Shown here in pieces: positions 29,068-58,337 of a stretch of DNA of 64,000 nt. Made by a program: the position numbers and the translations under genes. Each line of letters begins with the position of its first letter. Position 1 is the first letter of the stretch. The DNA lies in assembly GCF_029784135.1 (NCBI RefSeq), contig NC_073745.1, positions 54,989,755 to 55,053,754 of the forward strand, read 5' to 3'. The DNA is from Toxorhynchites rutilus septentrionalis (lineage: Eukaryota; Arthropoda; Insecta; Diptera; Culicidae). The notes under the pieces were generated by a model. The model was not told the origin of the DNA and searched no databases. It worked only from the letters and a program-made list of their open reading frames with translations.

Positions 29068-29083
29068 GGTTCTTTTCAGAACC
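29068..29083 (+). terminator. Histone 3' stem-loop (second unit of C1)
   Basis: GGTTCTTTTCAGAACC: perfect 6-bp stem and TTTC-type loop of a histone mRNA 3' end. The stem bases differ from unit a but pair perfectly. Confidence 0.85.
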
Positions 29084-37830: not shown

Positions 37831-38653
37831 TGGTCACCCCTCATCCTCGCCGCATGAGTTTTCCTTGGGTGAAAATGAACACAAAAAAGACGGGTGGGTA
37901 ATGTCGGGGACATAACCGGAGTGACGTAGGACTATACAAAGGGGACAGCTTTTGTTAAATATATATTTTAAATATATTGTTTTATTTTCTTCTCCTACGT
38001 AAATACCTACCTATCTACCTGAAAAATGGATTAGTTTACTGTTTACTCTTTATGAATATGTTGAGGGTCGAAAAGAACCTTTGGTGTTGTGTTTTTGTTA
38101 TCACTCGATATTCCCATCTTGTTCGGTTAAACCTTCCTGTTTAGCGATTTGTTGTCACTCGCCACAGCTTTCACAGTTGGAAAATTTCTTCCCATCCAGC
38201 TTGTGACATATTTTACAGTAAATTACATTCAATGCAACGTACCGAAGCGCCACTCAGTGTCGCATTGGAGGCGATTTTAACCTGTAATTGAACATTTGCG
38301 ATGACAGTGGTACAGTGTCGACTTTCAATGTGGGGTCATAATTTGGATCTCTATGTTTACAAAAATGTCCAACTAAATAAGTCGCATTACATGTCCGTCC
38401 AATTAGCTAAATGTCGAACTAATTGTAAATTACTGTACTTTCAATCTGGAAACAATTTAAGAGTTGGTGAAAATTGAATAATCTTGAAAGTCCCCAACTA
38501 TCAATAAGCTCAGAACTACTGCCAAATTCACATACTCATCAGATCCTGGCAAACAAATTATGAAAACATCAATTTGTGTTTTATTATTATTTTGGATAAT
38601 GTTTTAGAACGCATTGAACTTTATTTCCTAAACTCTTTTTTGGAAGGTTTAAT

Positions 38654-38669
38654 GGCCCTGAAAAGCGCC
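38654..38669 (-). terminator. Histone 3' stem-loop (H2A unit a of C2/C4)
   Basis: Complement reads GGCGCTTTTCAGGGCC, as in C1, C3 and C5. A degenerate second loop (GGTTCTTTTCGACCC) lies at about 38064-38079. Confidence 0.75.
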
Positions 38670-39504
38670 TTGTTTTATGGAATGGTTCCAATTTAGAAAA
38701 CTTAGTACTCGTGGTTTTGAAAAAAAAACCATTTCGAACGCCCTCGATGCCGCCTTGTTCTGGATTTGCCACCAAAGCAGATTGTAAAAAGAACAAACTT
38801 TTGACGTAGGACTACGTCTAACCGGAAGATATAGGGTGTGAAATGGAAATCTAGGCACTGAACAAGTAGGAAAAAATGCAAGATTTGGAACGCTTATAAC
38901 TCGAGCATTTCTCAATAGATCGCAAAGGTTTTTGCATCAATTGATAGGAAATATATCTACGCATCTATCATAACGAATATCATTTCATTTTTCATGGGAT
39001 AAATAATTGAATAATTGTGAAATATCAAGCATTGTTAAAATGCCCTATGTGCCCATTTTTGATTGGTCCATTTTGTGCTCCTCAAATCGTACCGACCAAA
39101 ACGGGCAACCAGAGCAGCAGCGAAATAGAATGAAGCACGATTGGAAAGGAAAAAGAAAAAAATGAACGAAACATTGGTCGCAGTCTCACACATGCGTAAT
39201 TCTCGAGCCAGCCAGTCAGCTTAAAAATCCCCGCTTCGCTGCCGTAACGATCATTCTTTGTGTGGACACCGACTGGACAACATCGTTGCTGGACGAGCTG
39301 GACGGCGAGGGATCGAGTGGTAGCGCTGGAGTAGAGTAATAGAGTAGAGTAGAGTTTTCAAAGGGCCTTTCTCAAGGCTAGAGACGAATGAACTGCAAAA
39401 GTTTAAAGTCTCTATAATACAATACCTTCCTTCCTTCCGTAACGATCATTCTCATTCAAACCGTACACCACATCGGTTCGCATCACAACACACCAACAAA
39501 CTAA

Positions 39505-39701
39505 AAAAGGAGGAAAAGTGAAGGGAAAGGCAAAATCCCGCTCGAACCGTGTTGATCTGGAGTTCCCCGCAAGGGTAGCTAGGCCGAGCGCGTTAGTACC
39601 AGTGCACCAGTCCACCTAGCCGGCGTTATATAGTTTCGGCCGCCGAAGTGATTGAGTTAGCTGGCAAAGCTGCTCGCGACGATAAGAAAACCCGCATTCG
39701 G
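39505..39701 (+). pseudogene. Histone H2A pseudogene (unit a, C3)
   Basis: H2A-derived frame: KGGKVKGKAKSRSNR, then LEFP joined directly to RKGS, AERVSTSAPVHLAGVI and, one frame over, AEVIELAGKAARDDKKTR. The VGRIHRLL segment is deleted, the Tyr of GNYAER is a stop, and the 3' third is not recognisable. In this copy the initiator region (MSGHG in C5) is deleted. The sequence between 38803 and 39505 contains the presumed histone 5' flank. Confidence 0.88.
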
Positions 39702-39933
39702 AACAGAACACATTCGGTTCGGTGGACATCAAGACAACAGGCAGTTGCAGCGAGTGGCGAGTGGCAAACGCAATCGCAAAACGGCATCAGGTAGCAGAAG
39801 AAAAAAGTTTGTTCTTTATACAAACTGCTTTGGAGGCAAATCCAGAACAAGGCGGCATCGAGGGCGTTCGAAATGGTTTTTTTCAAAACCACGAGTACTA
39901 AGTTTTCTAAATTGGAACCATTCCATAAAACAA

Positions 39934-39949
39934 GGCGCTTTTCAGGGCC
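39934..39949 (+). terminator. Histone 3' stem-loop (unit a, C3)
   Basis: GGCGCTTTTCAGGGCC, one mismatch in the stem; identical to the C1, C2 and C5 copies. Confidence 0.8.
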
Positions 39950-40691
39950 ATTAAACCTTCCAACAAAGAGTTTAGGAAATACAGTTCAATGCATTCTAAA
40001 ACATTATCCAAAATAATAATAAAACACAAATTGATTTTTTCATAATTTGTTTGCCAGGATCTGATGAGTATGTGAATTTGAAAGTTGTTCTGAGCTTATT
40101 GATAGTTGGGGACTTTCCTGATTATTCAATTTTCACCAATTCTTAAATTGTTTCCAGATTGAAAGTACAGTAATTTACAATTAGTTCGACATTTAGCTAA
40201 TTGGACGGACATGTAATGCGACTTATTTAGTTGGACATTTTTGTAAACATAGAGATCCAAATTATGACCCCACATTGAAAGTCGACACTGTACCACTGTC
40301 ATCGCAAATGTTCAATTACAGGTTAAAATCACCTCCAATGCGACACTGAGTGGTGCTTCGGCACGTCGCATTAAATATAATTTACTGTACAACATGTCAC
40401 AAAGCTGGATGGGAAGAAATTTTGCAACTGTGAAAGCTGTGGCGAGTGGCAACAAATCGCTAAACAGGAAGGTTTAGCCGAACAAGATGGGGATATCGAG
40501 TGATAACAAAACAATAAACTCTTTAGATTGAAGATAATTTTGTGATCCTGAAAAGGACCCTTTTTAGCCTGCATGTGAATCCAACGAGCGAACAAATCGT
40601 AAATTTAACGCTCATTCTTCGTCTCGTTGGACTCACCCCTCTGGCTGAGTCTGCCGATTTGTCTCTATCCTGTGAGTGTGTACCGCTAGAG

Positions 40692-40698
40692 TATAAAA
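40692..40698 (+). promoter_or_regulatory. TATA box of H2A unit b (C3)
   Basis: TATAAAA about 70 bp upstream of the H2A-like frame; conserved in C1 and C5. Confidence 0.6.
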
Positions 40699-40766
40699 CA
40701 TGCGGACCCCAAAAAAATATCTTATTTTCTTTCAAACCGTAAACCCGTGTGGTTGTACGGCATCGA

Positions 40767-41002
40767 CATCGTGGACGTAACAAAGGAGGACAAGTTAAGG
40801 GAAAGGCAAAGTCTCACTCGAACCTTGCAGATCTCCAGTTCCCTGTTGGTCGCATTCACTGATTGCTCCGCAAGGGTAACTATGCCGAACGGATTGGTGC
40901 CGGAGCACCAGTATACCTAACAGCGATTATAGAGTTTCGGCCGTCGGAGTGCTCGAGTTGGCTTGCAAAGCTGCTCACGACAATCAGAAAACCCGCATCA
41001 AG
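40767..41002 (+). pseudogene. Histone H2A pseudogene (unit b, C3)
   Basis: The best preserved H2A copy in its central part: [19 protein letters not shown] is uninterrupted. It is preceded by [14 protein letters not shown] sequence and LQFPVGRIH with a stop after His. It is followed, after a frameshift, by [16 protein letters not shown]. The initiator ATG is lost (ATCGTGGACG), and the C-terminal docking region and tail are absent. The flanking TATA box and stem-loop show a whole histone transcription unit was captured. Confidence 0.9.
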
Positions 41003-41238
41003 AACAGAGCAGCTTCGGTTCGGCGCTCATCAAGGCAACAATTAGTTTTAGTGAGTGGCAAAGTGTTTCTCCGGCACGTTGCATCAAATGTAATTTACTG
41101 AACAACATGTCACAAGCTGGATGGGAAGAAATTTTCCAACTGTGAAAGCTGTGGCGAGTGGCAAACGCAATAGCTAAACAGGAAGGTTTAACCGAACAAG
41201 ATGGGAATATCGAGTGATAACAAAAACACAACACCAAA

Positions 41239-41254
41239 GGTTCTTTTCAGAACC
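41239..41254 (+). terminator. Histone 3' stem-loop (unit b, C3)
   Basis: GGTTCTTTTCAGAACC, perfect stem. Confidence 0.85.
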
Positions 41255-41525
41255 ATCAACATATTCATAAAGAGTAAACAGTAAACTAATCCATTTTTCA
41301 GGTAGATATGTAGGTATTCACGTAGGAGAAGAAAATAAAACAATATATTTCAAAATATATATTTAACAAAAGCTGTCCCCTTTGTATAGTCCTACGTCAC
41401 TCCGGTTATGTCCCCGACATTACCCACCCGTCTTTTTTCTTCTGCTACCTGCTGCCGTTTTGCGATTGCGTTTGCCACTCGCCACTCGCTGCAACTGCCT
41501 GTTGTTGTCTTGATGTGTTCTGTTC

Positions 41526-41735
41526 TGAATGCGGTTTTTCTTATCGTCGCGAGCAGCTTTACCAGCCAACTCGATCACTTCGGCGGCCGAAACTATATAA
41601 CGGCGGCTAGGTGGACTGGTGCACTGGTACTAACGCGCCCGGCCTAGCTACCCTTGCAGGGAACTCCATATCAACACGGTTCGAGCGGGATTTTGCCTTT
41701 CCCTTCACTTTTCCTCCTTTACCATGTCCAGACAT
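41526..41735 (-). pseudogene. Histone H2A pseudogene (unit a, C2/C4)
   Basis: Minus-strand copy starting ATGTCTGGACATGG (MSGHGKGG), KVKGKAKSRSNR, then a shortened centre with the same loss of VGRIHRLL, and an ARDDKKT-type segment near 41535. Its 5' leader matches C5. The reading frame is broken as in the other unit-a copies. Confidence 0.87.
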
Positions 41736-42259
41736 GGCTGCTTGGGTTGGTTTGTTGATGTGTTGTGATGCGAACCGATGTGCTGTACGGTTTGAATGAG
41801 AATGATCGTTACGGCAGCGGAGCGGGGATTTTTAAGCTGACTGGCTGGCTCGAGAATTACGCATGTGTGAGACTGCGACCAATGTTTCGTTCATTTGTTT
41901 TCTTTTTCCTTTCCAATCGTGCTTCATTCTATTTCGCTGCTGCTCTGGTTGCCCGTTTTGGTCGGTACGATTTGAGGAGCACAAAATGGACCAATCAAAA
42001 ATGGGCACATAGTGAATTTTGAGAATGCTTGATATTTCACAATTATTCAATTATTTATCTCAAGAAAAATGAAATGTTATTCGTTATGATAGATGCGTAG
42101 ATATATTTCCTATCAATTGATGCAAAAACCTTTGCGATCTATTGAGAAATGCTCGAGTTATAAGCGTTCCAAATCTTGCATTTTTTCCTACTTGTTCAGT
42201 GCCTAGATTTTCATTTCACCCCCTATATCTTCCGGTTAGACGTAGTCCTACGTCAAAAA

Positions 42260-42965
42260 CGGACAGCTTAAACCGAACGACCCGTTCTCGAGCGGGAACA
42301 CGAGCGGGTTTTTATTTATGAAAATTGAAACAAATCGTTTCATATATCAAGTTATTTTTAACACAACTGCTACCATATACAATTTTACAATTACACTTGT
42401 GCTAAAGTTTTCACAATACACGATCGGTCATTGATATGAAATTTCACGAGGCAACCAACATAAAGTTCCAAATTTAAATTTTATTTGCTAGAACTAACCG
42501 TATCACTCACCCTACTTGCAATATAAAAATGCCCCCGATGCTGATTTCCCTCGGGCGCCTTGGTTTTGATGTTTCTGTTAGGGAACACATTTCGGTGGGA
42601 ACAAAAGCTCCCCCTTCTTTAATGTATTTGCAATGTCGATTTCCCCCAGGCAGCTTGGTTTTGATGTCTCTGTTAGGGAACCGCCGCATGTGTCATCAAT
42701 TTCGACCAATTAGAAGTGGATATTTCCGTTAGGAGAGGGGTTGAGATTTTTCAAATGTTCGATAGTTAGTTCCATTACATATATTTTCTATTCAATATAA
42801 AAAATTGTTATGGAGTGCCGAAATTGATTGACGCAAAAATTTCATCTATCCATCATGAAATGTCTGAGCAATAAGCGTATGAAATTGGACAATTTTCACG
42901 ATGTGCTCGATTTTCGATTTTCAATTTGTACCCCAATATGTTCCCGAAAGACGTAATCCTACGTC
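42260..42965 (+). mobile_element. Diverged relative of the C elements (GACGTAATCCTACGTC end)
   Basis: The right end at 42950-42965 is GACGTAATCCTACGTC. Just inside it, ACGCTTAT.GCTC..ACATTTC and TTTTTGCGTCAAT (both read as complement) align with the subterminal region of C elements. Further in, 42507-42690 holds a tandem pair of ~115-bp units (GCTTGGTTTTGATGT.TCTGTTAGGGAA) related to 63680-63810. The left boundary is not defined, and no histone sequence was recognised. Confidence 0.5.
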
Positions 42966-43415
42966 TTTTAATTTGTGAACATTTGAAAACGGTCCGTAGT
43001 CGGCTGTATGACGAAGCTTCCGTTTGATGTCGAAACAGGAGCGTTGTATGATCTTCATGTCAACTTCGTTCTTTATTCTACCAATCAACTGTTTGCATCA
43101 ACTGGAGAGCCACAGTTATTTTTTTTTTGGCTACAAATGGGATCGAATGGGTATCCATGAACGATTGGGGTTTTCGGCGCAATGCGATTATACTTTATCC
43201 GGCCGAAACACGTATTGTCGATCTGCATGATGTTTTTGTTGAACGGGCTCAAATTTTTCTTCAAACATTCGTTCTGGTGCACATCTTCATTAAAGGCCAA
43301 CCGTAACTGCATCATGACTTAGAAATACCTCTCTCGGAAATGGCAATGTGGCAGCATCACTTTCTGTTCAAACTTATATTTAAACTTATATTTTATGTTC
43401 GGAGATACATTTTTT
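42966..43415. other. Unassigned spacer
   Basis: No gene or family recognised; ends at another GACGTAGAACTACGTC. Confidence 0.35.
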
Positions 43416-45190
43416 GACGTAGAACTACGTCTTTCATTAAGGGTGCCAAATCAGAAAACAGGTCACGTTTTTATGAAATAAAGTTACCGTTAATAACTAT
43501 TTTTGCCGCGAACGGATTTTGGCGATTTACATACCAAACGAATCGGAAATTCCCTAAGATTTGTTTAATTTGCTATACATTAGAACCCCCTGGTTTGCAA
43601 ATGGTGAAAATTCATGAAAACTTTAAGCGTTTCCATTTGCTCATACATTTGTTCTGTCCATTTGTGTGCTTTCCCGAACATAGCTGTCAATAACGAGCAA
43701 CTTATCGACGACCAACGAAGGGGAAATCGTAAGATTTAAAGTCTTCGTGAACAAAGGAAAAGTAGAAGAATGAAGGGGAATACTTGCCTAGAGTATAAAC
43801 AGTGGATCTCGCTGAAGCAAACTTTCATTCGGCATCGGACTGTTGAGCAATCCAGTTCATTTTGCTTTCGCTGCGCTTCGATCTAAGATTGGACCCCACC
43901 AGTGGTAATCCAACTTGGATATCGTCGTGTGGTTTTAGCTACTCGTTTTTCGCGTTATTCGTATCGTGTGTTTTTCTTCTTTCCGCGTCATAAATTTGAC
44001 GCCTCGCGTAGTGTGTGATGAGCAAGAAGAAGAGGAAGGCAGGCTCGAGCCCTGCAAAAAATGAACGCATTGCCAGGGGCAATAAAATTTCGAGGCAAGC
44101 GTCATCTAATGATGCATGCGATGTTGGTGCAGTGAAAAACGCTTGGCCTGAGCCGAGCCTTCGCGAGTGTGACACCGCATCGAACAACAGCGAAGTAGGC
44201 GACTTCGGCGCGTCGATCGAAAAGTAAGCACCATTACCCAGGCAGCAGCCAAAATCAAGCTCCCCCTGCTGGTGATGAAGGCGGTCGCTCTTGACAAACT
44301 CATCAACTGTGTGGCATAATTCAGTCTTTTTCCAAGCAGTTAACACTGTTTGTTTTCCGTCATCATAAGGGCTTCGTTGGTGTCTTTGAGAATGCATCAA
44401 TGCATTAAACTGACTTTATGGCGAAGCAGGCGTAAAGATTGTGTGCCAAAAAATATTTGGGGAAAACCAAGCATTTTGAATGTCTTACTGGAATGTCTGG
44501 AATTTTGTATGTGATTAGGTTTCGCTTACCAGTAGCAAAACTTCCTCCACTAAGGGCTGCGCTTCTCTCGAGCATGAGGTGTAATGCAACTTTTTTCCAG
44601 GTCAGTAATATTAACAGAAGCATTTCTTTTGAGAATAGCGCTAAATGATGAGAAGATGTGTTTATATTCCTAGTAGTTTCAAGCCACCAATGTAATGGCT
44701 TTGTATGCATGCTATGGCGAACGCTTGTTTGGCACTTGGTTTACGTTGTACGAACGATGCTTAGAGGTGCGATTCCACTGAGGCAATACTAAATAACATG
44801 TAGCATGATATTTGATTCTTGCAAGTGTTGTTATTGTTGTTGTTTCCATGCGGTGCCAAAGATATATCGATTTAGTTATGAGATGTGGAATAATGGTGCA
44901 TGTATATAATCGACTGTAGTCGCGTCTATGTCTATTGCGAAAAATGCCACCGAAATAGCGTTCGAGGTAAATTTTCAATGCATTGACATTGCGACATATG
45001 ATCAGTGTATTGTTTTGCGAGAGCAAGAATGAATCATCAATCAATTATCGTCAACTGATTCTACAATGATAAAACCATCTCGGATATTATTCTACTAAAG
45101 CAGTTGTTTCTAAAATTTCACAGCATTATAGAATAATATCCGAAGGTATAAACAAGCGACTTATATAAAATAACAGCGTAGTTCTACGTC
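43416..45190. mobile_element. Possible element bounded by GACGTAG-type ends
   Basis: The left end GACGTAGAACTACGTCTTTC follows six Ts; the right end GCGTAGTTCTACGTC closes at 45190. Both are the palindromic type of end; the hairpin type is missing. The two may therefore belong to different elements. The interior includes a retrotransposon-like 5' fragment. Confidence 0.35.
43790..44310 (+). pseudogene. Possible 5' UTR and ORF1 start of a Jockey-type retrotransposon
   Basis: The 5' part (43790-44014) is a moderately GC-rich leader with TTCGGCATCGGACTGTTGAG. The frame at 44018-44227 begins MSKKKRKAGSSPAKNER and contains RQASSNDACDVGAVKNAWPE. It then stops after ASIEK and continues in another frame with AAAKIKLPLLVMKAVALDKL, a pattern like ORF1 N-termini of Jockey/Juan elements as I recall them. 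Nothing downstream (zinc knuckles, RT) is present. Tentative. Confidence 0.35.
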
Positions 45191-45227
45191 AACAATGCGA
45201 TCGTATCTTGGACACCATCTCCTATAA

Positions 45228-45376
45228 TTTTTTTCTATATTATAGTGACTTTCAACACATTTCGGCTGGTTCGTCACTTTTACTTCCATTTTTAGAAGAA
45301 TGTCGGGAGTGAGAATTGAACTCGTGATCTCTGCGTGAGAGGTATGGATGTTACCACTACGCCAGATCACCTCTAC
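45228..45376 (-). mobile_element. tRNA-derived SINE, second copy
   Basis: Same family as 36080-36237: box A TGGCGTAGTGGTAA complement at about 45353-45366, box B (ATCACGAGTTCAATTCTC complement, about 45311-45328), GTGACGAACCAGCC body and a T-run at 45228-45234. Confidence 0.85.
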
Positions 45377-46201
45377 AGTTCGGAGATACAATAAAACTAT
45401 CCAAGGAATAGTATCGATCGTTTCCGGAGATGTGCGTCTCCGAAAGCGGGAAGTAACTTTCGTCGTCCAAAACAAAACATTTTCCGGAACAACTTTCTAT
45501 CAATCAACGGCATGGAGATTTCAGCGCCGAAATCTGTTTCTCAGTGTAGTCCGGGGCTCTTGTTTTCTTTCGGCACTATATTCTGACTCGTTTCAATGTT
45601 TTGAAGATGAAAGTTGGGGGGATTTGGACCGCCGCTTTTATCTCAAAAAGTAAAAGTCATCTACTTCTAGTGTTGAACCGTATGTACCTAACGTAAAACA
45701 TGTTTGGTAAAATTTAACAGGTGGAGGGAAACGGTAGTACGAACACAGCAAGCACTTCGATTTTTAAAAAATGTGAGCTTTCCAATCGTGGCTTTAAAGT
45801 TTTTTTCCACTGATTAAACAAACTTTTCGTGTATTGTGCAGTAAAGTTCTGTTCGCCTACGGAAGAGGAACAATTTGATGCAGCAAAACTTTACCTTTTA
45901 GAAACAATAAACTGAAATTAATTGCATTTTAATTTTTGCATGTTTTGTGGGGTGACATGGACACGTTTCTCTAGGGTTGAATTGGTCCTACAGGTTTGAG
46001 GCTTTTCTTTGGTCTAATTGATTCCAGATGCCACTGAATTACAAGAAGAGGATGGGCAGACAACGTTGGAAGAAGGAGGAGCTTTAAAGAGCAACGCAGA
46101 CCATCAAGGACGGATTGTTTTTGACCAAGCATCGAAAGTGTTTGAAAATGCACGAACAAAAGTGAGGAGATCCATGCAGAATTCAAATTGGTCTTAATGC
46201 A
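45377..46201. other. Unassigned spacer
   Basis: No gene recognised. Confidence 0.35.
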
Positions 46202-47411
46202 TTTTTGACGTAGGACTACGTCTTTCATTTCTATACCGGGGTGTAAAATCAAAGTTTCGAAAACGAAAGCGTTACGCCGGAGACCGAGATTTTGAGCGTT
46301 AATAGCTCTTAAACAACTGAACGAAATGGTATGATAAACACTTCATTCGAAAGATAAAATGTCTACGCGTTATATACTTGTTACTTTTCCATCCAAAAAC
46401 TTGTTTCAATAGTCTTCAAATTGATTTCAAAACAGGCTATTGAAATCACCAATCGGTATATAAGCGAGCGCCGCTCGTAAACCACCTCAGTTATAATTGA
46501 ACAGCGATTGGAGCATGTTGTCGCTGTTGTGGTGAAACTCTTCGTTTATCATGAAAGCGCGGATGAACGGTGTCACCAAGAGCCTGTTTGTGCACCTTAA
46601 GCCAGAAGGGAATCCATCAGGAGGAGAGTGATGCCACGGTTCCGCTTGAAACATCGGAGCAGCCGCCACACACACACACACATACACGCGCGGAATTCTC
46701 GTTGCTATCATCGTTGCTGAAAAATAATCTGCCAGTTCCCCTGGGAATTGAAAAATACATTCATGCGAAAGAGTTTATTTTAATGTTTTCTATCCATACA
46801 ACACTGCAACCAAATACATTTCGTTTTGGATTTTTCAATCAAGTGCGATCAACGCAAGACCACGTCTTTCGGCAATTTATTAGAGGTACAATGAATCTTT
46901 AGGAATTCCCGCTCTACGCGCATTGGCAAACGATGTTTACTCAACAATTTCTCAAACGAGAAATGGGTGTTGTGAGAAAGGATTAGCGAACGCAAAAACG
47001 ACAAACGGGAGGAAGATATGTTTGGAGGTTGAAGGAAATTGGCAGAAAACATCTTCATTTTATCTTTCGAATAATGTGATTCATACCACTTCGTCTTGCC
47101 AGAAAGAGATTATCAATGCTCAAAGGAAGAATTGAGTCCTCCGAGGAAATTACCCAGCGCAAATTAGAGTCGACTATCGACTGCGGCATTCGTACACAAA
47201 TAATTTTATAATGCAGTTTCATCAAAGTGATGTCTTCGATATGGGGAAATATTCACCACATCATGTCATGTATTTCATATTCTTCACTATCAAATCCATA
47301 TCCATGGCACCTATCGGTATCGCATTATCATCGACACCACGATTTTCGCTAAATGCTCCTTTCAGTTCGGCCTACAAAAAACTTTTCTGAACTCTAATCC
47401 ATCAAATTTGG

Positions 47412-47427
47412 AGCCCTGAAAAGGGCC
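47412..47427 (-). terminator. Histone 3' stem-loop (H3 copy a)
   Basis: Complement reads GGCCCTTTTCAGGGCT, a near-perfect histone stem-loop directly after the H3-like frame. Confidence 0.88.
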
Positions 47428-47439
47428 GTTGATTATATG

Positions 47440-47812
47440 CTAAGCTAATAGCACGTTCTCTTCGGATACGATGGGCCAGCTGGATGTCCTTGGGCATGAT
47501 GTGACGCGCTTTGCGTGGATAGCAAACAAATTGGTATCTTTGAATAGGCCTCCTGCAGCGTCATAAACGCGGAACTTTGGAAGTGCAAGTCGGTTTTGAA
47601 GTCCTGGGCAATTCCACGAACCAAATGCTGCAAAGGTAGCTTGCGGATCAGCAATTCGGTCGACTTCTGTTAGCGACGAATTTCACGCAAAGTTCCCGGT
47701 CGATAGCGATGTGGCTTCTTCACACTTCCTGCGGCTGGTGCGTTTATCCGAGCTGCTTTCGTGGTGCCTTACCACCGAAAGACAACGAGCTGTCTGCTTA
47801 GTCCCGATGAAA
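47440..47812 (-). pseudogene. Histone H3 pseudogene (copy a, D1)
   Basis: Core histone H3. Readable: [15 protein letters not shown], a deletion, [55 protein letters not shown], then a deletion of the SEAYLV codons that shifts the frame, and [11 protein letters not shown] in the new frame. The C-terminal [17 protein letters not shown] equivalents are present as bases. A stop replaces the Tyr of RRYQKS. The start codon is lost. The stem-loop at 47412 follows. The TATA position of copy b is mutated here (ATAATATG). Confidence 0.92.
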
Positions 47813-47982
47813 CGAGTCCTCACGGTGCGAGAGTAGAGTAAGAAATGAACGAAAGCAAAGGAAGCGTCATATTATGAACCATAAAAGTATAGAATTACTT
47901 ACTTACGATGTTATTCGTTTCTCTCTCAGGGTAAGCAACGAATATAATAAGGGTGGGGTTTACATTCTACACTTTTATGGTT

Positions 47983-47989
47983 TATAAAA
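47983..47989 (+). promoter_or_regulatory. TATA box of H3 copy b
   Basis: TATAAAA about 65 bp upstream of the H3-like frame; also present upstream of H3 copy c (complement, 56190-56196). Confidence 0.6.
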
Positions 47990-48049
47990 TGACGCTTCCT
48001 TTGCTTCCGTTCATTTCTTACTCTACTCTCGCACCGTGAGGACTCGTTT

Positions 48050-48399
48050 GTTTGGGACCAAGCAGACAGTTCGTTAGTTTTTCGGTGGTCAGGTACCACG
48101 AAAGCAGCTCGGATAAGCGCACCAGCACCAGTCGCTAACGACCGGGAACTTTGCGTGAAATTCGTCGCTATCAGGACTCGACCGAATTGCTGATCCGCAA
48201 GCTACCTTTGCAGTATTTGGTTCGTGGAATTGCCCAGGACTTCAAAACCGACTTGCACTTCCAAAGTTCCGCGTTTATGACGCTGCAGGAGGCCTATTCG
48301 AAGATACCAATTTGTGTGCTATCCACGCAAAACGCGTCACATCATGCCCAAGGACATTCAGCTGGCCCGTCGAATCCAAGGAGAGCGTGCTATATTAGC
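48050..48399 (+). pseudogene. Histone H3 pseudogene (copy b, D1)
   Basis: Plus-strand mirror of copy a: TKQTV, GGQVPRKQL, a longer N-terminal deletion (KKPHRYR lost), then [52 protein letters not shown] and the same frameshifting deletion before the [11 protein letters not shown] segment. The 3' stem-loop lies 17 bp after the end. The copies a and b form an inverted duplication with about 80 bp between the arms. Confidence 0.92.
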
Positions 48400-48415
48400 T
48401 TAGCATATAATCAAC

Positions 48416-48431
48416 GGCCCTTTTCAGGGCT
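48416..48431 (+). terminator. Histone 3' stem-loop (H3 copy b)
   Basis: GGCCCTTTTCAGGGCT. Confidence 0.88.
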
Positions 48432-49622
48432 CCAAATTTAATGGATTAGAGTTCAGAAAAGTTTTTTGCAGGCCAAACTGAAAGGATTATTTTCGTTTGG
48501 ATGCCATTCAGCATCGAGAAAATTCCGGAAAGATCCAATCGTTGCTGAAAAATAATCTGCCAGTTCCCTGGGAATTGAAAAATACATTCATGCGAAAGAG
48601 TTTATTTTAATGTTTTCTAACCATATAACACAGCGACCAAATACATTTGATTTTGTAATTTTTCATTCAAGTGTAATTAGCAGGAAATCTTCTGAAGATT
48701 ATTATTCCCCATCAGTAGGATATTTTCGTATCCAATATTGTATGCGCGCGCAGCGGAAAATGTTTCGCATCGCGAAAATTATATAATTTTCAGTCAATTA
48801 TTGCTCAGTCGCCGAAAGTTTCAAACTCAGTGAATTCATTCCCCTCTAGTTTGCCTTCCAAATTGCCATCGTAAATCACACCTTCTCTCGATTCAATCAC
48901 GCACGAAAAGCATACTTAAGCGAAATTCTGGTGGTGAAACCCATTCATTTTTCGTGAGGACATCGACAAGACAACATCGTTACTGAACGAGCTGGACGGC
49001 GAGGGATCGAGGGATTTATTACCTGGCCTGACCCGAACTGAAATGCAATCAGGTTGTTTTAACTGTGAGGGAGCGCAGAAAAGCCAATCGATCAGAAGGA
49101 GAAGAGAAGGTGACCAAGAGAGTATCAGCATCGAAAAACGGTTCCCCGGGAAGACATCGAAGCAGCCGCCACACACAGACACTCACATACACGCGCGCAA
49201 CTCTTTTCGTTTGCTGGTTATCGAGAAGAAACCTGGAAAGAAGTGATCGTTGCTGAAAAAAAATCGCCCAGTTCCCCTTGGAATTGAAAATTACATTCAA
49301 GCGAGTTTATTTTAATGTTTTCTATCCATATAATACTGCGACCACATACATTTGGTTTTGTGATTTGTCAATCAAGTGCAGTTAACAGGAAAGCTTCTGA
49401 AGATTATTCTTCAGAACAAGGTTTTTTGTATCCAATATTGGATGCATAAAACCTTGAGCCTCCAACGTAACGCTCTCGTTTTCGAAGTCCCCCAAATATT
49501 CATTTATTCATTCATTCAGAATGTATTTAGATTCAACTTCAAACTAATGATCTCTAAATCAACGATAGTCCTACGTCACCCTTGCGGTTATACCATAGAT
49601 ATAACCCACTTACTGTTTTTTT

Positions 49623-50745
49623 GGTCTGGAATATGGCCAAGACACCTGGTATCGATCCCAGAATACTGTTACTGACTGTAATATAATCTTGAATTACATA
49701 AACATAAGTGTGTTTTTTCCGAAGAAACATACACTGGACCAAATTACCCCACAGACGGTCCACATCACCCCGCATCAAATTTTAATGTCCAAAAATCACC
49801 TCTTTTATTTCATGATATATTTGGTAGTTTGTAGCTTGATATAATGATTAAACATTATTGATTAAGAGAAAACAAGTGTAGCTCAGTGTACAATGTGATT
49901 TTTATTTAGACCGTATTTGTTATAGGCGATTTACATAGGGAGTCCATATTCCCCCCATTTCCCCTGCTGGTGAGAACAGTTAAACTGAGCAACCCGTTGG
50001 CTCAGTGAATCCTTGTTGTTGAAGGCACGAGAAAAAGGACGAAATCCATTTGCGTCCATAATTTTGGCTTGTATTCCTCTACCTTACTTGAGAGTAGTTG
50101 TTGGGGATCTTAAGATATGGTAAACAGTCGGAGCCGCAACTTTTTCGCTTTTACCATATACTTTTTGCCGAGATTTCTTCTCGTGTTTTGTGTCGAATAT
50201 ATTTATTCAGTACACTTTGATCAAATTTTATCTGTCAAAAAGTGTCAAATGTTTGGCTTCGGTCAAACAGTGTATGAGCACCCTAATTTATTTAAAACTC
50301 AGCTAGTTCGTGCCTTTTACTCCTTTAGCGGGAATTTTAGATGGTTTCGTTTCCCGATTACGAATGGTTTGGGAAAGTGGATGAAAGTGCTATTTTTGCC
50401 CCTAGTTCTCCATTAGTGAAAGAGTTTTCTGCTGCCATTTTTTCCGTTCTTCTTTCACTTGAATAGAGTGAGTGCTGTGGTAGTGATGTTTTACGTTCTC
50501 ATCTCATGAGGGCTGTGCATTTGTGTGCGTATTGTTTGCAATCACGCTCTGGTACGCGTTTCATGCAAATGACTGCATATGGTCATACTATTTGGTGTTA
50601 TGAGATAGTGTTAGTGTTTCTTCTTCGCCGATCGCGGGCAATATATTGTGATAGATTTGGTTGTCGTTCTCTTCATTTCGATTTCTTCATTTGGGATTTC
50701 TTCACCGAAGTGAAAATATCACTGTATGCTATTCTGCGCTTCGGG
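49623..50745. other. Unassigned DNA
   Basis: About 1.1 kb with no recognised gene or element. Confidence 0.4.
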
Positions 50746-51426
50746 TACACGCAGAGGTGCCAACCAAATTTTTGAAAAAGCTGGGAAAAATTGAAAACGA
50801 ATACTGGAGAAAGCTGGAAAAAATTGAAAAAACCGGAAAAAAAAACTGGAAGAATTTTTTTTTTATTTTTTCTCATTTTTGACGTAGGACTACGTCTAAC
50901 CGGAAGATATAGGGGGTGAAATGGAAATCTAGGCACTGAACAAGTAGGAAAAAATGCAAGATTTGGAACGCTTATAACTCGAGCATTTCTCAAAAGATCG
51001 CAAAGGTTTTTGCATCAATTGATAGGAAATATATCTACGCATCTATCATAACGAATAACATTTCATTTTTCTGGAGATACATAATTGAATAATTGTGAAA
51101 TATCAAGCATTGTCCAAATGCACTATGTGCCCATTTTTGATTGGTCCATTTTGTGCTCCTAAAATCATACCGACTAAAACGGTCAACCAGAGCAGCAGCG
51201 AAATAAAATGAAGCACGATTGTAAAGGAAAAAGAAAAAAAATGAACGACATTGAGAAATGAACGACAAAAAATGAAACATTGGTCGCAGTCTCACACATG
51301 CGTAATTCTCGAGCCAGCCAGTCAGCTTAAGAATTCCCGCTCCGCTGCCGTAACGATCATTCTCATTCAAACCGTACACCACATCGGTTCGCATCACAAC
51401 ACATCAACAAACCAACCCAAGCAGCC

Positions 51427-51637
51427 ATGTCTGGACATGGTAAAGGAGGAAAAGTGAAGGGAAAGGCAAAATCCCGCTCAAACCGTGTTGATCTGGAGTT
51501 CCCCGCAAGGGTAGCTAGGCCGAGCGCGTTAGTACCAGTGCACCAGTCCACCTAGCCGGCGTTATATAGCTTCGGCCGCCGAAGTGATCGAGTTAGCTGG
51601 CAAAGCTGCTCGCGACGATAAGAAAACCCGCATTCGG
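51427..51637 (+). pseudogene. Histone H2A pseudogene (unit a, C5)
   Basis: Retains the start: ATG, MSGHGKGGKVKGKAKSRSNR, then DLEFP and the same central deletion, a stop in place of the Tyr of GNYAER, APVHLAGVI and a frameshifted AEVIELAGKAARDDKKTR. The leader upstream (CATCAACAAACCAACCCAAG) is shared with C4. The intact frame from this ATG is only about 42 codons. Confidence 0.9.
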
Positions 51638-51869
51638 AACAGAACACATTCGGTTCGGTGGACATCAAGACAACAGGCAGTTGCAGCGAGTGGCGAGAGG
51701 CAAACGCAATCGCAAAACGGCATCAGGTAGCAGAAGAAAAAAGTTTGTTCTTTATACAAACTGCTTTGGTGGCAAATCCAGAACAAGGCGGCATCGAGGG
51801 CGTTCGAAATGATTTTTTTCAAAACCACGAGTACTAAGTTTTCTAAATTGGAATCATTCCATAAAACAA

Positions 51870-51885
51870 GGCGCTTTTCAGGGCC
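51870..51885 (+). terminator. Histone 3' stem-loop (unit a, C5)
   Basis: GGCGCTTTTCAGGGCC. Confidence 0.8.
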
Positions 51886-52636
51886 ATTAAACCTTCGAAA
51901 AAAGAGTTTAGGAAATACAGTTCAATGCTTTCTAAAACAATATCCAAAATAATAATAAAACACAAATTGATTTTTTCATAATTTGTTTGCCAGGATATGA
52001 TGAGTATGTGAATTTGGCAGTTGTTCTGAGCTTATTGATTTTCACCAATTCTTAAATTGCTTCTAGATTGAAAGTACAGTAATTTACACTTATCTCGACA
52101 TTTAGCTAATTGGACGGACCTGTAATGCGACATATTTAGTTGGACATTTTTGTAAACATAGAGTTCGGGGTCCAAATTATGACCCCACATTGAAAGTCGA
52201 CACTGTAACACTGTCATCGCAAATGTTCAATTACAGGTTACAATTACCTCCAATCCGATACTGAGTGGTGGTAATGCGACGTGCCATTGAATGTAATTTA
52301 CTGTAAAATATGTCACAAGCTGGATGGGAAGAAATTTTCCAACTGTGAAAGCTGTGGCGAGTGGCAAATGCAATCGCTAAACAGAAAGGTTTAGCCGAAC
52401 AAGATGGGGATATCGAGTGATAACAAAACAATAAACTCTTTAGATTGAAGATAATTTTGTGATCCTGAAAAGGACCCTTTTTAGCCTGCATGTGAATCCA
52501 ATGAGCGAACAAATCGTAATGAATGTATTTTTTTGCCATCGCTCCCTTTTAACGCTCATTCGTTCGTCTCGTTGGACTCGGCCCTCTGGCTGAGTCTGCC
52601 GATTTGTCTCTATCCTGTGAGTGTGTACCGCTAGAG

Positions 52637-52643
52637 TATAAAA
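52637..52643 (+). promoter_or_regulatory. TATA box of H2A unit b (C5)
   Basis: TATAAAA, conserved with C1 and C3. Confidence 0.6.
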
Positions 52644-52712
52644 CACGCGGACCTCAAAAAAATATCTTATTTTCTTTCAAACCGTAAACCCGTGTGGTTG
52701 TACGGCATCGGC

Positions 52713-52947
52713 ATCGTGGACGTAACAAAGGAGGACAAGTTAAGGGAAAGGCAAAGTCTCACTCGAACCGTGCAGGTCTCCAGTTCCCTGTTGGTCGCAT
52801 TCACTGATTGCTCCGCAAGGGTAACTAGGCCGAACGGATTGGTGCCGGAGCACCAGTATACCTAACAGCGATTATAGAGTTGCGGCCGTCGGAGTGCTCG
52901 AGTTGGCTTGCAAAGCTGCTCACGACAATCAGAAAACCCGCATCAAG
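52713..52947 (+). pseudogene. Histone H2A pseudogene (unit b, C5)
   Basis: Same defects as unit b of C1: lost [14 protein letters not shown] followed by a stop, LLRKGN stop [12 protein letters not shown], then frameshifted [16 protein letters not shown]. The C-terminal third is missing. Confidence 0.88.
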
Positions 52948-53183
52948 AACAGAGCAGCTTCGGTTCGGCGCTCATCAAGGCAACAATTAGTTTCAGTGAG
53001 TGGCAAAGTGTTTCTCCGGCACGTCGCATTAAATGTAATTTACTGAACAACATGTCACAAGCTGGATGGGAAGAAATTTTCCAACTGTGAAAGCTGTGGC
53101 GAGTGGCAAACGCAATATCTAAACAGGAAGGTTTAACCGAACAAGATGGGAATATCGAGTGATAACAAAAACACAACACCAAA

Positions 53184-53199
53184 GGTTCTTTTCAGAACC
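53184..53199 (+). terminator. Histone 3' stem-loop (unit b, C5)
   Basis: GGTTCTTTTCAGAACC, perfect stem. Confidence 0.85.
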
Positions 53200-53459
53200 A
53201 TCAACATATTCATAAAGAGTAAACAGTAAACTAATCCATTTTTCAGGTAGATAGGTAGGTATTTACGTAGGAGAAGAAAATAAAACAATATATTTAAAAT
53301 ATATATTTAACAAAAGTTGCCCCCTTTGTATAGTCCTACGTCACCCCGGTTATGTCCCCGACATTACCCACCCGTCTTTTTTTATATTAACTATACAAAT
53401 TAGGGTAACAGTGACAGTGTCAGTATGTAGCATCGGTGCTTACGTATTACCGCCACCGG

Positions 53460-53960
53460 AACGTTATTTTCATTATGAATTTATTTTTTCGTAATGAAAT
53501 TTATTGTGAAGCCAATGTTATGGGAGCGAAATTCTCATCCAACAGTTTGCGAAAACAGGTTTGCTTGCGAGAGGCCGTGTCGTCACGGTTCCTTATCCTC
53601 GTTAAATGGGGATTCCACCACCTTTTACTTTACAAATCTGGGCAGTCTTTCCTTAGATACGCCCTTCATGACTTTTCGGTACCGGTCATGTTATTAGCCC
53701 CGTCGGACGAATATCCTACAAGAAAATCCAGCTTGTACGGCATTCCGTCTCTATTAAAACAGGCAACCACAGTCTCGCAAAACGTTTCTTAATCAGTTTC
53801 GATAACCTCAATTAAGTCGTGGAAGCAGTCTTAACATGGAGTGTATCTTGCTTAGTAAAGATCGTGCATGCGATCAACCCTAACGACTTCTTCGATGAAA
53901 CCGCCAGTAGACTCGTCTGCTATCAGGGAAAATGAATTTCGTTTTAAGTGGTCACATAAT
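53460..53960 (-). pseudogene. hAT-type transposase remnant
   Basis: On the minus strand, FSLIADESTGGFIEEVVRV (near 53925) matches the conserved DEST region with the first catalytic Asp of hAT transposases. VGYSSDGANNMTGTEKS (near 53715) matches the SDGA(S/N)NM region with the second. Stops and frameshifts separate them. The C-terminal dimerisation domain was not found. Confidence 0.65.
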
Positions 53961-54009
53961 CCTTCATGCTGGAAACTGGAAACTGGAAAAAGTTAGAAGA
54001 ATCGTTTTC

Positions 54010-54283
54010 GTTTGGATGGCACTTACGTTCCCAGTGAAACTTTTGCCTTCTCAACGTAGATATTACTTGCGACAATTTTATTAGTAGTACTTAGTTGACA
54101 TTTCTGTACCGAGTAATACCCCTTGAATGTATTCTGGAGTGGCAAGCTCTAGAATACGCGTGAACACAGTGCAAGTCGGAAGAAATTTCTTTGACGGAAA
54201 ATCCCCCGACCAGAACGGGAATTGAACCCGAACTTGCGACATTATAACGTGGGACGCAGCACAATCTTACTAATCCTTAATTT
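54010..54283 (-). mobile_element. tRNA-derived SINE, a second family
   Basis: The minus strand carries box B (GTTCGGGTTCAATTCCCG, complement at 54217-54234), followed by GGTCGGGGGATTTTCCGTC, a GCACTGTGTTCACGCGTATT block and a GAGCTTGCCACTC block. This body resembles a SINE frequent in Aedes as I recall it. The 5' part with box A is truncated or diverged. Confidence 0.65.
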
Positions 54284-55023
54284 TTCATCATAGTTTCATC
54301 ATTTCTACATGAAATGTGAAAAGTGGAAATTTTATTTGCTTTTGGCTGTTTCGCTGGCGTGCTTGAAAAAACAGGAAGTGGGTTATATCTATGGTATAAC
54401 CGCAAGGGTGACGTAGGACTATCGTTGATTTAGAGATCATTTGTTTGAAGTTGAATCTAAATCCATCCTGAATGAATGAATAAATAAATATTTGGGTGAC
54501 TTCAAAAACGAGAATGTTACTTTGAAGACTCAAGGTTTTATGCATCCAATATTGGATACAAAAAACCTTGTTCTGAAGAATAATCTTCAGAAGCTTTCCT
54601 GTTAACTGCACTTGATTGACAAATCACAAAACCAAATGTATGTGGTCGCAGTATTATATGGATAGAAAACATTGAAATAAACTCGCTTGAATGTAATTTT
54701 CAATTCCAAGGGGAACTGGCAGATTATTTTTCAGCAACGATCATTTCCTTCCAGGTTTCCTCTCGATAACCAGCAAACGAAAAGAGTTGCGCGCGTGTAT
54801 GTGTGTGTGTGTGGCGGCTGCTTCGATGTCTTCCCGAGGAACCGCATTTCGATGCTGATACTCTCTTGGTCACCTTCTCTTCTCCTTCTGATCGATCGGC
54901 TTTTCTGCGCTCCCTCACAGTTAAAACAAACTGATTGCATTTCAGGTCAAGCCAGGTAATGAATACCTCGATCCCTCGCCGTTCAGCTCGTTCAGTAACG
55001 ATGTTGTCTTGTCGATGTCCTCA

Positions 55024-55173
55024 GGCGTCGTGCACAAATTACGTAACGCAAAAATCTGGATTTTGAACCTCCCCCCCCTTTCGTAACGCAATTTCCTATC
55101 TCTAATAAACAGAAAGTAACGCAACATCTAACCCCTCCCCCCTTATCACGTTACGTAATTTGTGCACGACGCC
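55024..55173. mobile_element. 150-bp MITE with TCA target duplication
   Basis: Perfect 24-bp inverted ends starting GGCGTCGTGCACAAATTACG, flanked by TCA (55021-55023, 55174-55176). The homologous sites in D0 (near 20372) and D1 (near 48955) read GTCCTCACGAAAAATG without the insertion, which confirms the boundaries. Three-base duplications suggest PIF/Harbinger. Confidence 0.92.
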
Positions 55174-55729
55174 TCACAAAAAATGAATGGGTTTCACCAC
55201 CAGAATATCATTTCAGTATGCTTTTTGTGTGTGATTGAATCGAGAGAAGGTGTGGTTTACGAAGGCAATTTGGAAAACAAACTAGAGGAGAATGAACTCT
55301 CTGAGTATGAAAATTTCGGCGACTGAGCAATAATCGATTGAAAATTATATAATTTTCGCGATACGAAACATTTTCCGTTTTTCATGTTATGCATCCATTA
55401 TTGGATACGAAAATATCCTACTGATGGGAAAGAATAATCTTCAGAAGCTTTCCAGCTAATTACACTTGATTGAAAAATTACGAAATCAAATGTATTTGGT
55501 CGCTGTGTTCGCCATATAATTAGAAAACATTAAAATAAACTCTTTCGCATGGATGTATTCTTCAATTTACGTCACGGTATATGAAATTTCCAGGGAACTG
55601 GCAGATTATTTTTCAGCAACGATTAGATCTTTCCGGAATTTTCTCGATGCTGTATGGCATCCAAACGAAAATTCTCGTTTCAGTTTGGCCTGCAAAAAAC
55701 TTTTCTGAACTCTAATCCATCAAATTTGG

Positions 55730-55745
55730 AGCCCTGGAAAGGGCC
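55730..55745 (-). terminator. Histone 3' stem-loop (H3 copy c), loop mutated
   Basis: Complement GGCCCTTTCCAGGGCT: stem intact, one loop base changed from the consensus. Confidence 0.75.
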
Positions 55746-55765
55746 GTTGATTATATGCTAAGCTA

Positions 55766-56130
55766 ATATAGCACCCTCTCCTTGGATTCGACGGGCCAGC
55801 TGAATGTCCTTGGGCATGATGTGACGCGTTTTGCGTGGATAGCACACAAATTTGTATCTTCGAATAAGCCTCCTGCAGCGTCATAACCGCGGAACTTTGG
55901 AAGCGCAAGTCGGTTTTGAAGTCCTGAGCAATTCCACGAACCAAATGTTGCAAAGGTAGCTTGCGGATCAGCAATTCGGTCGACTTCCGATAGCGATGAA
56001 TTTCACGCAAAGTTCCCGGTCGATAGCGATGTGGCTTCTTCACCTATCCTGCGGCTGCTGCGCTTATCCGAGCTGCTTTCGTGTGCCTTACCACTGAAAG
56101 ACTACCCTGCTATCTGCTTGGTCCCAAACA
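55766..56130 (-). pseudogene. Histone H3 pseudogene (copy c, D2)
   Basis: [36 protein letters not shown] and [17 protein letters not shown] are nearly perfect H3. Then LQEA and the shared deletion that loses SEAYLV and shifts the frame. The N-terminal region has the same deletion after RKQL. TTTTATA (complement TATAAAA) at 56190-56196 marks the promoter side. Confidence 0.93.
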
Positions 56131-56618
56131 AACGAGTCGTCACGGTGCGAAAGTAGAGTAAGAAATGAACGAAAGCAAAGGAAGCGTCATTTTATAACCT
56201 GTTTTCGAAGCTATCATTAAGCTATTGAAACAATTTTCCGACTCAATAAATAGCAATCATATAACTCTTGGACATTTTATCTTTTGTATGAAATGATTAT
56301 CACTGTTCCGTTGATCCGAAGCAGAATGAATCACGCTTAAAGAAGGAATGGATTTTTTCTTGGAATTTACTCAGCAAAAATAATGCCCTTTCCCAACACT
56401 TAAAAACGACAAACGGTAAACAGTTTCATCAAAGTGATTTCTTCGATATGGGGATATATTCACTACATCATGTCATGTATTTCATATTCTTCATTATGAA
56501 ATCCATATCCATGGCACCTATCGGTATCGAATTATCATCGACACCACGATTTTCGCTAAATGCTCCTTTCAGTTCGGCCTGTAAAAAACTTTTCTGAACT
56601 CTAATCCATCAAATTTGG

Positions 56619-56634
56619 AGCCCTGAAAAGGGCT
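56619..56634 (-). terminator. Histone 3' stem-loop (H3 copy d)
   Basis: Complement AGCCCTTTTCAGGGCT: perfect stem with a changed terminal pair. Confidence 0.85.
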
Positions 56635-56658
56635 GTTGATTATATGCTAAGCTAATAT

Positions 56659-56990
56659 AGCACGCTCTCCTCGGATACGATAGGCAAGCTGGATGTCCTT
56701 GGGCATGATGTGACGCGTTTTGCATGGATAGCACACAAATTGGTATCTTCGAATAAGCCTCCTGCAGCGTCATAACCGCGGAACTTTGGAAGCGCAAGTC
56801 GGTTTTGAAGTCCTGAGCAATTCCACGAACCAAATGCTGCAAAGGTAGCTTGCGGATCAGCAATTCGGTCGACTTCTGATAGCGACGAATTTCATGCGAA
56901 GTTCCCGGTCGATAGCGATGTGGCTTCTTCACGCTTCCTGCGGCTGGTACGCTTATCCGAGCTGCTTTCGTGGTGCCTTACCACCGAAGG
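56659..56990 (-). pseudogene. Histone H3 pseudogene (copy d, D2)
   Basis: Starts near GGKAPRKQL; the first tail residues and the promoter are lost. Then [53 protein letters not shown] and the common frameshifting deletion. In tandem, same direction, with copy c about 530 bp away. Confidence 0.92.
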
Positions 56991-58337
56991 ACTAACGATA
57001 ATAATTCGTTACCGATAGGTGCCATGGATATGGATTTCTTAATGAAGAATATGAAATACATGACATGATGTAGTGAATATATCCGAAGAAATCACTTTGG
57101 TGAAACTGCATTATAAAATTATTTGTGTACGAATGCCGCAATCGATAGTCGACTCTAATTTGCGCTGGGTAATTCCTCCTTTGAACATTAATAATCTCTT
57201 TCTGGCAAAACGATGTGGTATGAATCACATTATTTGAATGATAGAATGAAGAAGTTTTCTGCCAATTTCCTTCAACCTCCAAACGTATCTTTCTCCCGTT
57301 TGTCGTTTTTGCGTTCGCTAATCCTTTCTCACAACACCCATTTCTCGTTTGAGAAATTGTTGAGTAAACATTGTTTGCCAGTGCGCGTAGAGCGGAAATT
57401 CCTAAAGATTCATTGCACCTCTAATAAATTGCCGAAAGACGTGGTCTTACGTTGATCGCACTTGATTGAAAAAATCCAAAACGAAATGTATTTGGTCGCA
57501 GCATTATATGAGTAGAAAGCAAATAATCGCTCGAAAATTACTTGATTTTCGCGATGTGAAACATTTTCCGTTTTTCATGTTATGCATCCAATATTGGATA
57601 CGAAAACTTCCACTGATGGGGAAAATATATTCAGAAGCTTTCCTGTTAATTGCGATTGATTGAAAAATAACAAAACCAAATATATTTGGTTGCAGTGTTA
57701 TATGGATATAAAACATTAAAATAAACTCTTTCGCATGAATGTATTTTTCAATTCCCAGGGGAACTGGCAGATTATTTTTCAGCAACGATGATAGCAACGA
57801 GAATTCCGCGCGTGTATGTGTGTGTGTGTGTGGCGGCTGCTCCGATGTTTCAAGCGGAACCGTGGCATCACTCTCCTCCTGATGGATTCCCTTTTGGCCT
57901 TAGGTGCACAAACAGGCTCTTGGTGACACCGTTCATCAGCGTTTCCATGATAAACGAAATTAGCTTCACAACAACAGCGACAACATGCTCCAATCGCTGT
58001 TCAATCATAACTGAGTGGGTTTACGAGCGGCGCTCGCTTATATACCGATTGGTGATTTCTATAGCCTGTTTTGAAAGCAATTTTAAGGCTATTGAAACAA
58101 GATTTTGGATGAAAAAGTAACAAGTATATGACGCGTAGACATTTTATCTTTCAAATGAAGTGTTTATCATACCATTTCGTTCAGTTGTTTAAGAGCTATT
58201 AACGCTCAAAATCTCGGTCTCCAGCGTAACGCTTTCGAAACTTTGGTTTTACACTCCGGTATAGAAATGAAAGACGTAGTCCTACGTCAAAAACTGGCAA
58301 TATACAACAAAAACTGGAAGGTTGGCAACCCTACACG

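Follow-up and report, generated by a model that had tools for sequence, protein, structure and literature searches.

Putative Helentron-type elements carrying captured histone gene DNA in the genome of the mosquito Toxorhynchites rutilus septentrionalis

Introduction

Capture of histone genes by a mosquito Helentron is already known: Helentron-Cq-32A of Culex quinquefasciatus carries broken fragments of the H4 and H1 genes in eight copies that are 83–84% identical to their parents (Thomas et al. 2014, PMC4067079; cited here and below from part of its text). Here we describe a case that is far more amplified. A stretch of 64,000 nucleotides from the Toxorhynchites rutilus septentrionalis genome (902.6 Mb in 514 contigs), located at positions 54989755–55053754 of contig C2 (NC_073745.1) and referred to below as the window, contains two subfamilies of transposable element that share a palindromic subterminal repeat, differ in their 3′ ends and hold genomic DNA of replication-dependent histone genes, including promoter, H2B flank, coding sequence and stem-loop. 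These histone-bearing chimeras number in the thousands and are dispersed over the genome. Very probably these are non-autonomous Helentron-type (HINE-like) rolling-circle elements that captured host histone DNA and were amplified genome-wide, the cargo likely being a passenger. An original prediction, made from the sequence of the window alone, had proposed that a non-autonomous transposon captured the histone units as DNA and then spread, and knew of no described mosquito element with this cargo. The second of these statements falls to the Culex element (PMC4067079), whilst the first is supported by the shared ends, two insertion sites, unrelated flanks and dispersed matches, and by a native promoter and H2B flank within the cargo.

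By description, Helentron-Cq-32A and HINE-Cq resemble the present elements in their palindromic subterminal repeats, 3′ hairpin, TT target, two to five terminal T, internal repeats and broken histone fragments (PMC4067079). The differences lie in cargo and number: in place of the H4 and H1 fragments, in eight copies, of Helentron-Cq-32A (PMC4067079), the present elements carry H2A/H2B and H3 sequence with promoter and stem-loop, divided between two subfamilies, and their exact matches number in the thousands. DINE-1/INE-1 elements of Drosophila are also non-autonomous relatives of Helentrons with subterminal repeats, a 3′ stem-loop, a TT target and high copy number, but the DINE-1 repeats are non-palindromic and the cited part of the paper mentions no histone cargo for them (PMC4067079). 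Canonical Helitrons, such as those of maize and bat, likewise take up host gene fragments as DNA (PMC4067079). A further likeness is found in the fungus Pseudocercospora fijiensis and its relatives, where a transposon-captured H3 gene has multiplied to hundreds of inactivated copies; the carrier there, however, is a hAT DNA transposon inactivated by repeat-induced point mutation (RIP) and not a rolling-circle element (PMC6710886, also cited from part of its text).

A search of titles and the opening parts of abstracts, outside which lay most subscription papers, Repbase and TEfam, found no further description of a mosquito Helentron or HINE that carries histone sequence, and the subterminal repeat, in four spellings, was not found in a text search of papers. 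The present elements extend the one case of Helentron histone capture found in print to further, highly amplified captures with promoters and 3′ processing signals.

Histone-bearing elements in the window

Seven insertions of one terminal type are present in the window, six of them with histone cargo, and these fall into two groups, one carrying H2A/H2B pieces and the other H3 (positions are those of the window):

37883–42259 (−): outer HINE-like element of the H2A subfamily, running from 42259 (5′) to 37883/37889 (3′); H2A-a present, H2A-b absent; split by a nested sibling at 38799–41438
38799–41438 (+): P1, the nested H2A-subfamily element, with H2A-a, H2A-b and stem-loops; inserted into the outer copy at a T/A run
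50876–53385 (+): E3, H2A-subfamily element with both ends, H2A-a, H2A-b and stem-loops (from termini and alignment)
27594–29266 (+): E1, 5′-truncated H2A-subfamily copy with H2A-b and the 3′ end (from terminus and alignment)
46202–49622 (+): H3-subfamily element with two head-to-head H3 pseudo-units (47450–47782, −; 48057–48391, +)
54366–58293 (−): H3-subfamily element with two H3 pseudo-units (55770–56082 and 56659–56971), both sense in the element
19670–21287 (−): H3-subfamily element without histone cargo (no significant histone match), inside a mariner transposase frame (19301–21942)

The two groups have an identical 16-bp 5′ palindrome, and the outer element at 37883–42259 aligns to its sibling, minus the H2A-b block. 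Between E3 and the 54366–58293 element, the one cross-group pair compared, there is no aligned stretch at E 1e-8. The range first proposed for the elements, 37889 to 58288, begins and ends at element ends but leaves outside it two members of the family, the H2A-bearing copy at 27594–29266 and the cargo-free one at 19670–21287.

The cargo comprises ten histone-like pieces identified by tblastn, six H2A-like and four H3-like, all within repeated blocks. The matches far exceed those of shuffled controls (20 shuffles each of five histones), for which the best E was 0.25 with H3 and 0.087 with H2A. The frames and the main cargo segments are:

47450–47782 (−), 48057–48391 (+), 55770–56082 (−), 56659–56971 (−): H3-like frames, best tblastn E per copy 6e-32 to 1e-39
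28602, 39506, 40773, 41735 (−), 51427, 52718: H2A-like frames, best tblastn E per copy 1e-11 to 1e-26
51427–51634 (+): H2A-a pseudogene, ATG kept, frame ending after 42 residues
52380–52534 (+): native H2B 3′ flank with antisense stem-loop GGTCCTTTTCAGGATC (52461–52476, −), then the stretch immediately before the H2B start, with the coding sequence of H2B gone
52545–52945 (+): H2A-b promoter (TATA 52635–52645), leader and H2A codons 1 to ~78; 80% over 423 columns to the native H2A unit on contig C3
53184–53199 (+), also at 29068 and 41239: histone 3′ stem-loop GGTTCTTTTCAGAACC, then AAAGAG (RF00032, 41 bits)
47981–48431 (+): H3 pseudo-unit from TATA (47981) to stem-loop GGCCCTTTTCAGGGCT (48416–48431)

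That repeated elements with shared ends hold H2A- or H3-like frames, as predicted, is borne out by tblastn and by the common termini, every frame being a pseudogene. Five matches to the histone stem-loop consensus occur in the window against 0.04 expected, and three matches to Rfam RF00032 (at 29063, 41234 and 53179) exceed the gathering score, whereas the H3 stem-loops are weaker: three of the four are listed by Rfam (E 0.003–0.08), all below the gathering score, and the fourth (55730–55745) is absent from the Rfam listing of the window. The stem-loop behind H2A-a is imperfect, and that of the outer 37883–42259 copy is degenerate. TATA boxes, noted in the original prediction for two H2A-b and two H3 copies, are present as the exact string in three H2A-b copies (28519, 40690 and 52635) and one H3 copy (47981), with the second H3 copy, at 55.9 kb, having TTATAAAATG in its place. 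A protein search with the H3 piece matched 3,223 proteins; among the 120 listed, most are nameless and none was named as a mosquito protein.

Three other candidates for cargo of the window were rejected: H4 (E 0.013, through an N-terminal stretch common to H4 and H2A; best shuffle 0.058), H2B coding sequence (E 0.15 at a lysine-rich stretch; best shuffle 0.28) and H1 (E 1.2; best shuffle 0.005).

Two further features of the elements were noted by eye. A stretch near ACAACATCGTTGCTGGACGAGCTGGACGGCGAGGGATCGAG, possibly another captured piece, is common to P1 (39270–39320) and the H3 group (48960–49015), and a short insertion resembling a miniature inverted-repeat transposable element (MITE), with inverted ends (GGCGTCGTGCACAAATTACGTAACGC...), lies within an H3 element at 55035–55172.

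Element ends and insertion sites

The 5′ end of the elements reads TTTT/GACGTAGGACTACGTC, the palindrome GACGTAGGACTACGTC being preceded by four to five T. At the 3′ end the order is TAGTCCTACGTCA, four to seven bases, a hairpin (GGTTATGTCCCCGACATTACC or GGTTATACCATAGATATAACC), eight to nine bases and a T-run of at least four, the last bases before the run being ...CCCGTC or ...CTTCCTG (CTTACTG in one copy). The GGTTATGTCCCCGACATTACC hairpin has one A–A mismatch, that of copy E1 is altered, and fold energies range from −5.3 to −7.3. The sequence GACGTAGGACTA occurs 13 times exactly in the window, and 18 times with at most one mismatch, against 0.10 expected.

In Helentrons and HINEs, subterminal inverted repeats of ~12–15 bp lie near the 5′ terminus (palindromic in the Culex and mite families) and ~38–60 bp from the 3′ terminus, a palindrome lies 8–35 bp from that terminus, and insertion is into a T-rich target that has T at both borders and is otherwise unmodified (PMC4067079). 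The present elements follow this pattern. The 13-bp TGACGTAGGACTA is common to both ends and close to the 5′ terminus, the 3′ repeat is found 33–37 bp plus the T-run from the 3′ terminus with the hairpin between, and T is present at both borders in all nine of the dispersed complete copies described below. ATG-started frames of at least 80 amino acids lying wholly within the elements reach at most 119 amino acids, as judged from a list of open reading frames without a profile search, in keeping with non-autonomous elements. Canonical Helitrons have 5′ TC and 3′ CTRR ends and insert between A and T; these features are not seen in the present elements, which have other 3′ ends and a T-run target.

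The subterminal repeats of the H2A and H3 types are identical over 12 bp, whilst their 60-bp 3′ ends are alike at 42 of 67 alignment columns. Under the published rule that subterminal repeats identical over at least 11 bp define a family (PMC4067079), the two types are therefore two subfamilies of one family.

Further evidence for insertion at discrete sites comes from the flanks. Joining those of the cargo-free element restores a continuous mariner transposase frame, the two halves of which match residues 6–127 and 132–344 of Mos1. The target of P1 is uninterrupted at three sibling places (39.8, 51.7 and 27.7 kb), relative to which the P1 site has gained four T; the mariner site fits the same gain, and a gain of this kind fits the expectation if the terminal T belong to the element. 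Twelve 500-bp flanks from six copies (P1 left out) were compared in 66 pairs and proved dissimilar apart from one 25-bp match, which arises because two flanks overlap in the window (53864–53888) and are read from both sides. The mariner frame itself (19301–21942) is Mos1-like and open apart from the HINE-like insertion.

The ends also invite comparison with cut-and-paste transposons that have terminal inverted repeats (MITE- or foldback-like) and generate 4-bp TTTT target duplications, since GACGTAGGACTA is present at both ends in inverted orientation and the P1 site has four T more than its empty siblings, a difference that the mariner site also fits. The repeat, however, is terminal at one end only; at the other it lies 33–37 bp and a T-run inside, with a hairpin after it, as in the pattern published for Helentrons. 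In the cited part of the literature target duplication was not found for HINEs (PMC4067079). We consider a cut-and-paste origin very unlikely.

Copies across the genome

Exact matches to the 21-base 5′ terminus number 20,461 genome-wide, those to the deletion junction of the H3 pseudogene 2,651 and those to a 32-mer containing the stem-loop GGTTCTTTTCAGAACC 3,406, the reversed control being 0 in each case. These counts take exact matches and so miss mutated copies, and one element may hold several H3 junctions. When 40 of 2,029 first-look candidates for H3 cargo were scored, all 40 were full-length matches at 98% or above; similarly, 40 of 40 scored matches to the H2A-b cargo (from 265 candidates) were at 95–100%, the first-look numbers being of unconfirmed copies. 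The check suggested with the original prediction, a genome-wide count with alignment to native histone genes, has given thousands of exact matches, with the C3 genes 83–88% identical to the cargo, gaps excluded.

Twelve of the 40 H3 loci were fetched: nine have both ends correctly oriented (4.5–6.0 kb), one runs to the edge of its stretch and two are partial. The nine complete loci each contain two sense H3 pseudo-units 888–889 bp apart, with an antisense unit also present in eight and a third sense unit in two, and at E 1e-5 no match is seen for their 18 flanks. The element ends were not found in scans of collections of viral contigs and of genome contigs.

A second explanation, that the window holds a decayed tandem histone cluster invaded later by transposons, draws on the presence of several H2A and H3 copies inside 30 kb and the spacing of the three H2A-b copies, ~12 kb apart. 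The original prediction had named as the outcome that would speak against it a single degenerate cluster with no copies elsewhere and no precise ends. Instead, the scored H3 and H2A-b copies are spread across contigs C1, C2 and C3; genome-wide matches run to thousands, dispersed copies with precise ends amongst them; copies share exactly the same end points, whichever way they are oriented, and have flanks that are unrelated; and one member lies inside the mariner frame and another inside a sibling. Listed matches of the intact-H3 class lie elsewhere, the nearest on C2 being ~46 Mb from the window, although weaker histone matches are found closer, for example at C2:60.3 Mb (both among the best 150 of 7,890 histone candidates scored). 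There is scarcely any case left for a decayed cluster.

Origin of the cargo

In the stretches of contig C113 that were read, native histone genes form divergent H2A–H2B and H3–H4 pairs, plus H1. The closest native genes found are at C3:233.5 Mb, on another chromosome-scale contig than the window's. The H3 cargo at 56.8 kb is 81% identical over 344 columns to the gene at C3:233.55 Mb and 70–74% identical to the others (12 native loci), and that at 48.2 kb is 76% identical to the same gene compared with 70–71% for the others. Counting aligned bases only, the cargo is 86–88% (H3) and 83–86% (H2A) identical to the C3 genes, the native C3 and C113 genes are 81.5–82.6% identical to each other, and identity to native sequence is 83% for the promoter and leader of H2A-b. 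In E3, 102 bp match the native C3 H2B 3′ flank at 88%, stem-loop included, and 44 bp match the sequence just upstream of the native H2B start at 84%, the H2B coding sequence being missing between them. The presence of an H2A promoter and an H2B 3′ flank in the cargo shows that capture took place at the DNA level.

The proposal that whole units were captured holds in part: H3 is nearly whole, with internal deletions that are the same in all four window copies, but H2A is cut at ~codon 78 and H2B has lost its coding part. H2A-a and H2A-b both leave the native H2A match at ~codon 78 and have a 1-base deletion in common, a pattern that suggests a single capture and subsequent duplication within the element. 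An origin as mRNA-derived retropseudogenes, captured or mobilised by the machinery of long interspersed nuclear elements (LINEs), deserves almost no credence: LINEs are present in the window and intronless genes give no intron evidence either way, but promoter sequence upstream of TATA and the H2B 3′ flank align with native genomic DNA, and no poly(A) tails or LINE-type duplications are apparent at the displayed ends, where no systematic search was made.

A related element 5′ end is present in the native C3 cluster (~C3:233597479), ~0.9 kb from the end of H2B coding sequence, and is 78% identical over 277 bp to E3; elements of this kind do, therefore, reach that cluster.

State of the cargo

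Neither an intact frame nor coding constraint, as would be expected of a functional histone gene, is seen in the cargo. All ten window copies are broken by frameshifts, deletions or stops, and none of the copies read proved to hold an intact histone frame. Among 30 H3 places (42 records, 12 places occurring twice, and the window's own copies included), the longest frame with TELLIRKLP is 122 codons and departs from the H3 frame. In these copies the mean differences per site are 0.0053, 0.0149 and 0.0054 at the first, second and third positions of native codons, giving no sign of coding constraint, with third positions no more variable than first. At 0.024, measured over an interval displaced by one base, the variability of the H3 stem-loop is no lower than that of spacer (0.016, 0.012). 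The broken frames and lack of any sign of coding constraint make it most likely that the cargo is a passenger, which does not exclude possible use of the promoter or stem-loop.

Proposed mechanism

If these are indeed HINE-like elements, each subfamily would have captured its cargo separately during rolling-circle replication, whether by missed termination or by composite transposition, as in models for Helitrons, from a donor that was presumably a histone cluster of the C3:233.5 Mb type. The cargo may then have been rearranged and duplicated inside the element, giving H2A-a and H2A-b in the one case and H3 units head to head and as 889-bp repeats in the other. Multiplication would have been in trans, by the Rep/helicase of an autonomous Helentron.

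Several observations weigh against this scheme. The empty mariner site rests on the frame and on Mos1 spacing, no empty sibling having been seen, and a 4-bp target duplication could also account for the four added T and is indistinguishable from element-borne T. The H3 promoter homology spans a short stretch of 35 columns (score 33, compared with at most 27 in 300 shuffles), and none of the 19 native stem-loops found is the source of the stem-loop GGTTCTTTTCAGAACC. Among the 30 copies, variability is lower in H3 coding (0.0087) and promoter sequence (0.0073) than in nearby spacer (0.012, 0.016), which we put down to the copies having been chosen by similarity in that stretch. Finally, no autonomous element with these ends was found: the Helitron_like_N profile has at least 132 matches in the genome (150 best of 1,313 candidates scored), and at four of the 132 places, mostly covered upstream (three with 3.5–3.7 kb upstream and one with 1.5 kb each side), there is no matching palindrome.

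Open frames of 1564–1674 codons accompany the Helitron_like_N matches at C2:6603193, C2:26079453, C2:320571306 and C3:178037638, with pairs having identical scores; these four loci are candidates for recently active rolling-circle elements.

A more far-reaching reading would take repeated capture of replication-dependent histone units by the Helentron class (H4/H1 in Culex, H2A/H2B and H3 in two subfamilies here) to be non-random, with S-phase-active tandem loci as possible favoured templates. The TATA-to-stem-loop units might then give the elements S-phase, non-polyadenylated transcripts, and the stem-loops, present in thousands, might in addition compete for SLBP and U7. Taken jointly, these suggestions are improbable. 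The exact stem-loop stretches counted above make it testable whether captured histone promoters and stem-loops are used, silenced or ignored, and, in genomes such as this one, counts, probes and annotations of histone genes can be inflated by mobile pseudogenes.

Other features of the window

Ends broadly similar in type to those described above (GACGTAGGATTACGTC, GACGTAGAACTACGTC and variants) are also located at 42950–42965 (−), 43416–43431 (+), 1389–1401 (−) and 61940–61952 (+) and probably belong to other HINE-like subfamilies. At 7588–13065 (+) lies a LINE with Pfam matches to endonuclease, reverse transcriptase and RNase H over more than one open frame and with six unnamed relatives in the protein database.

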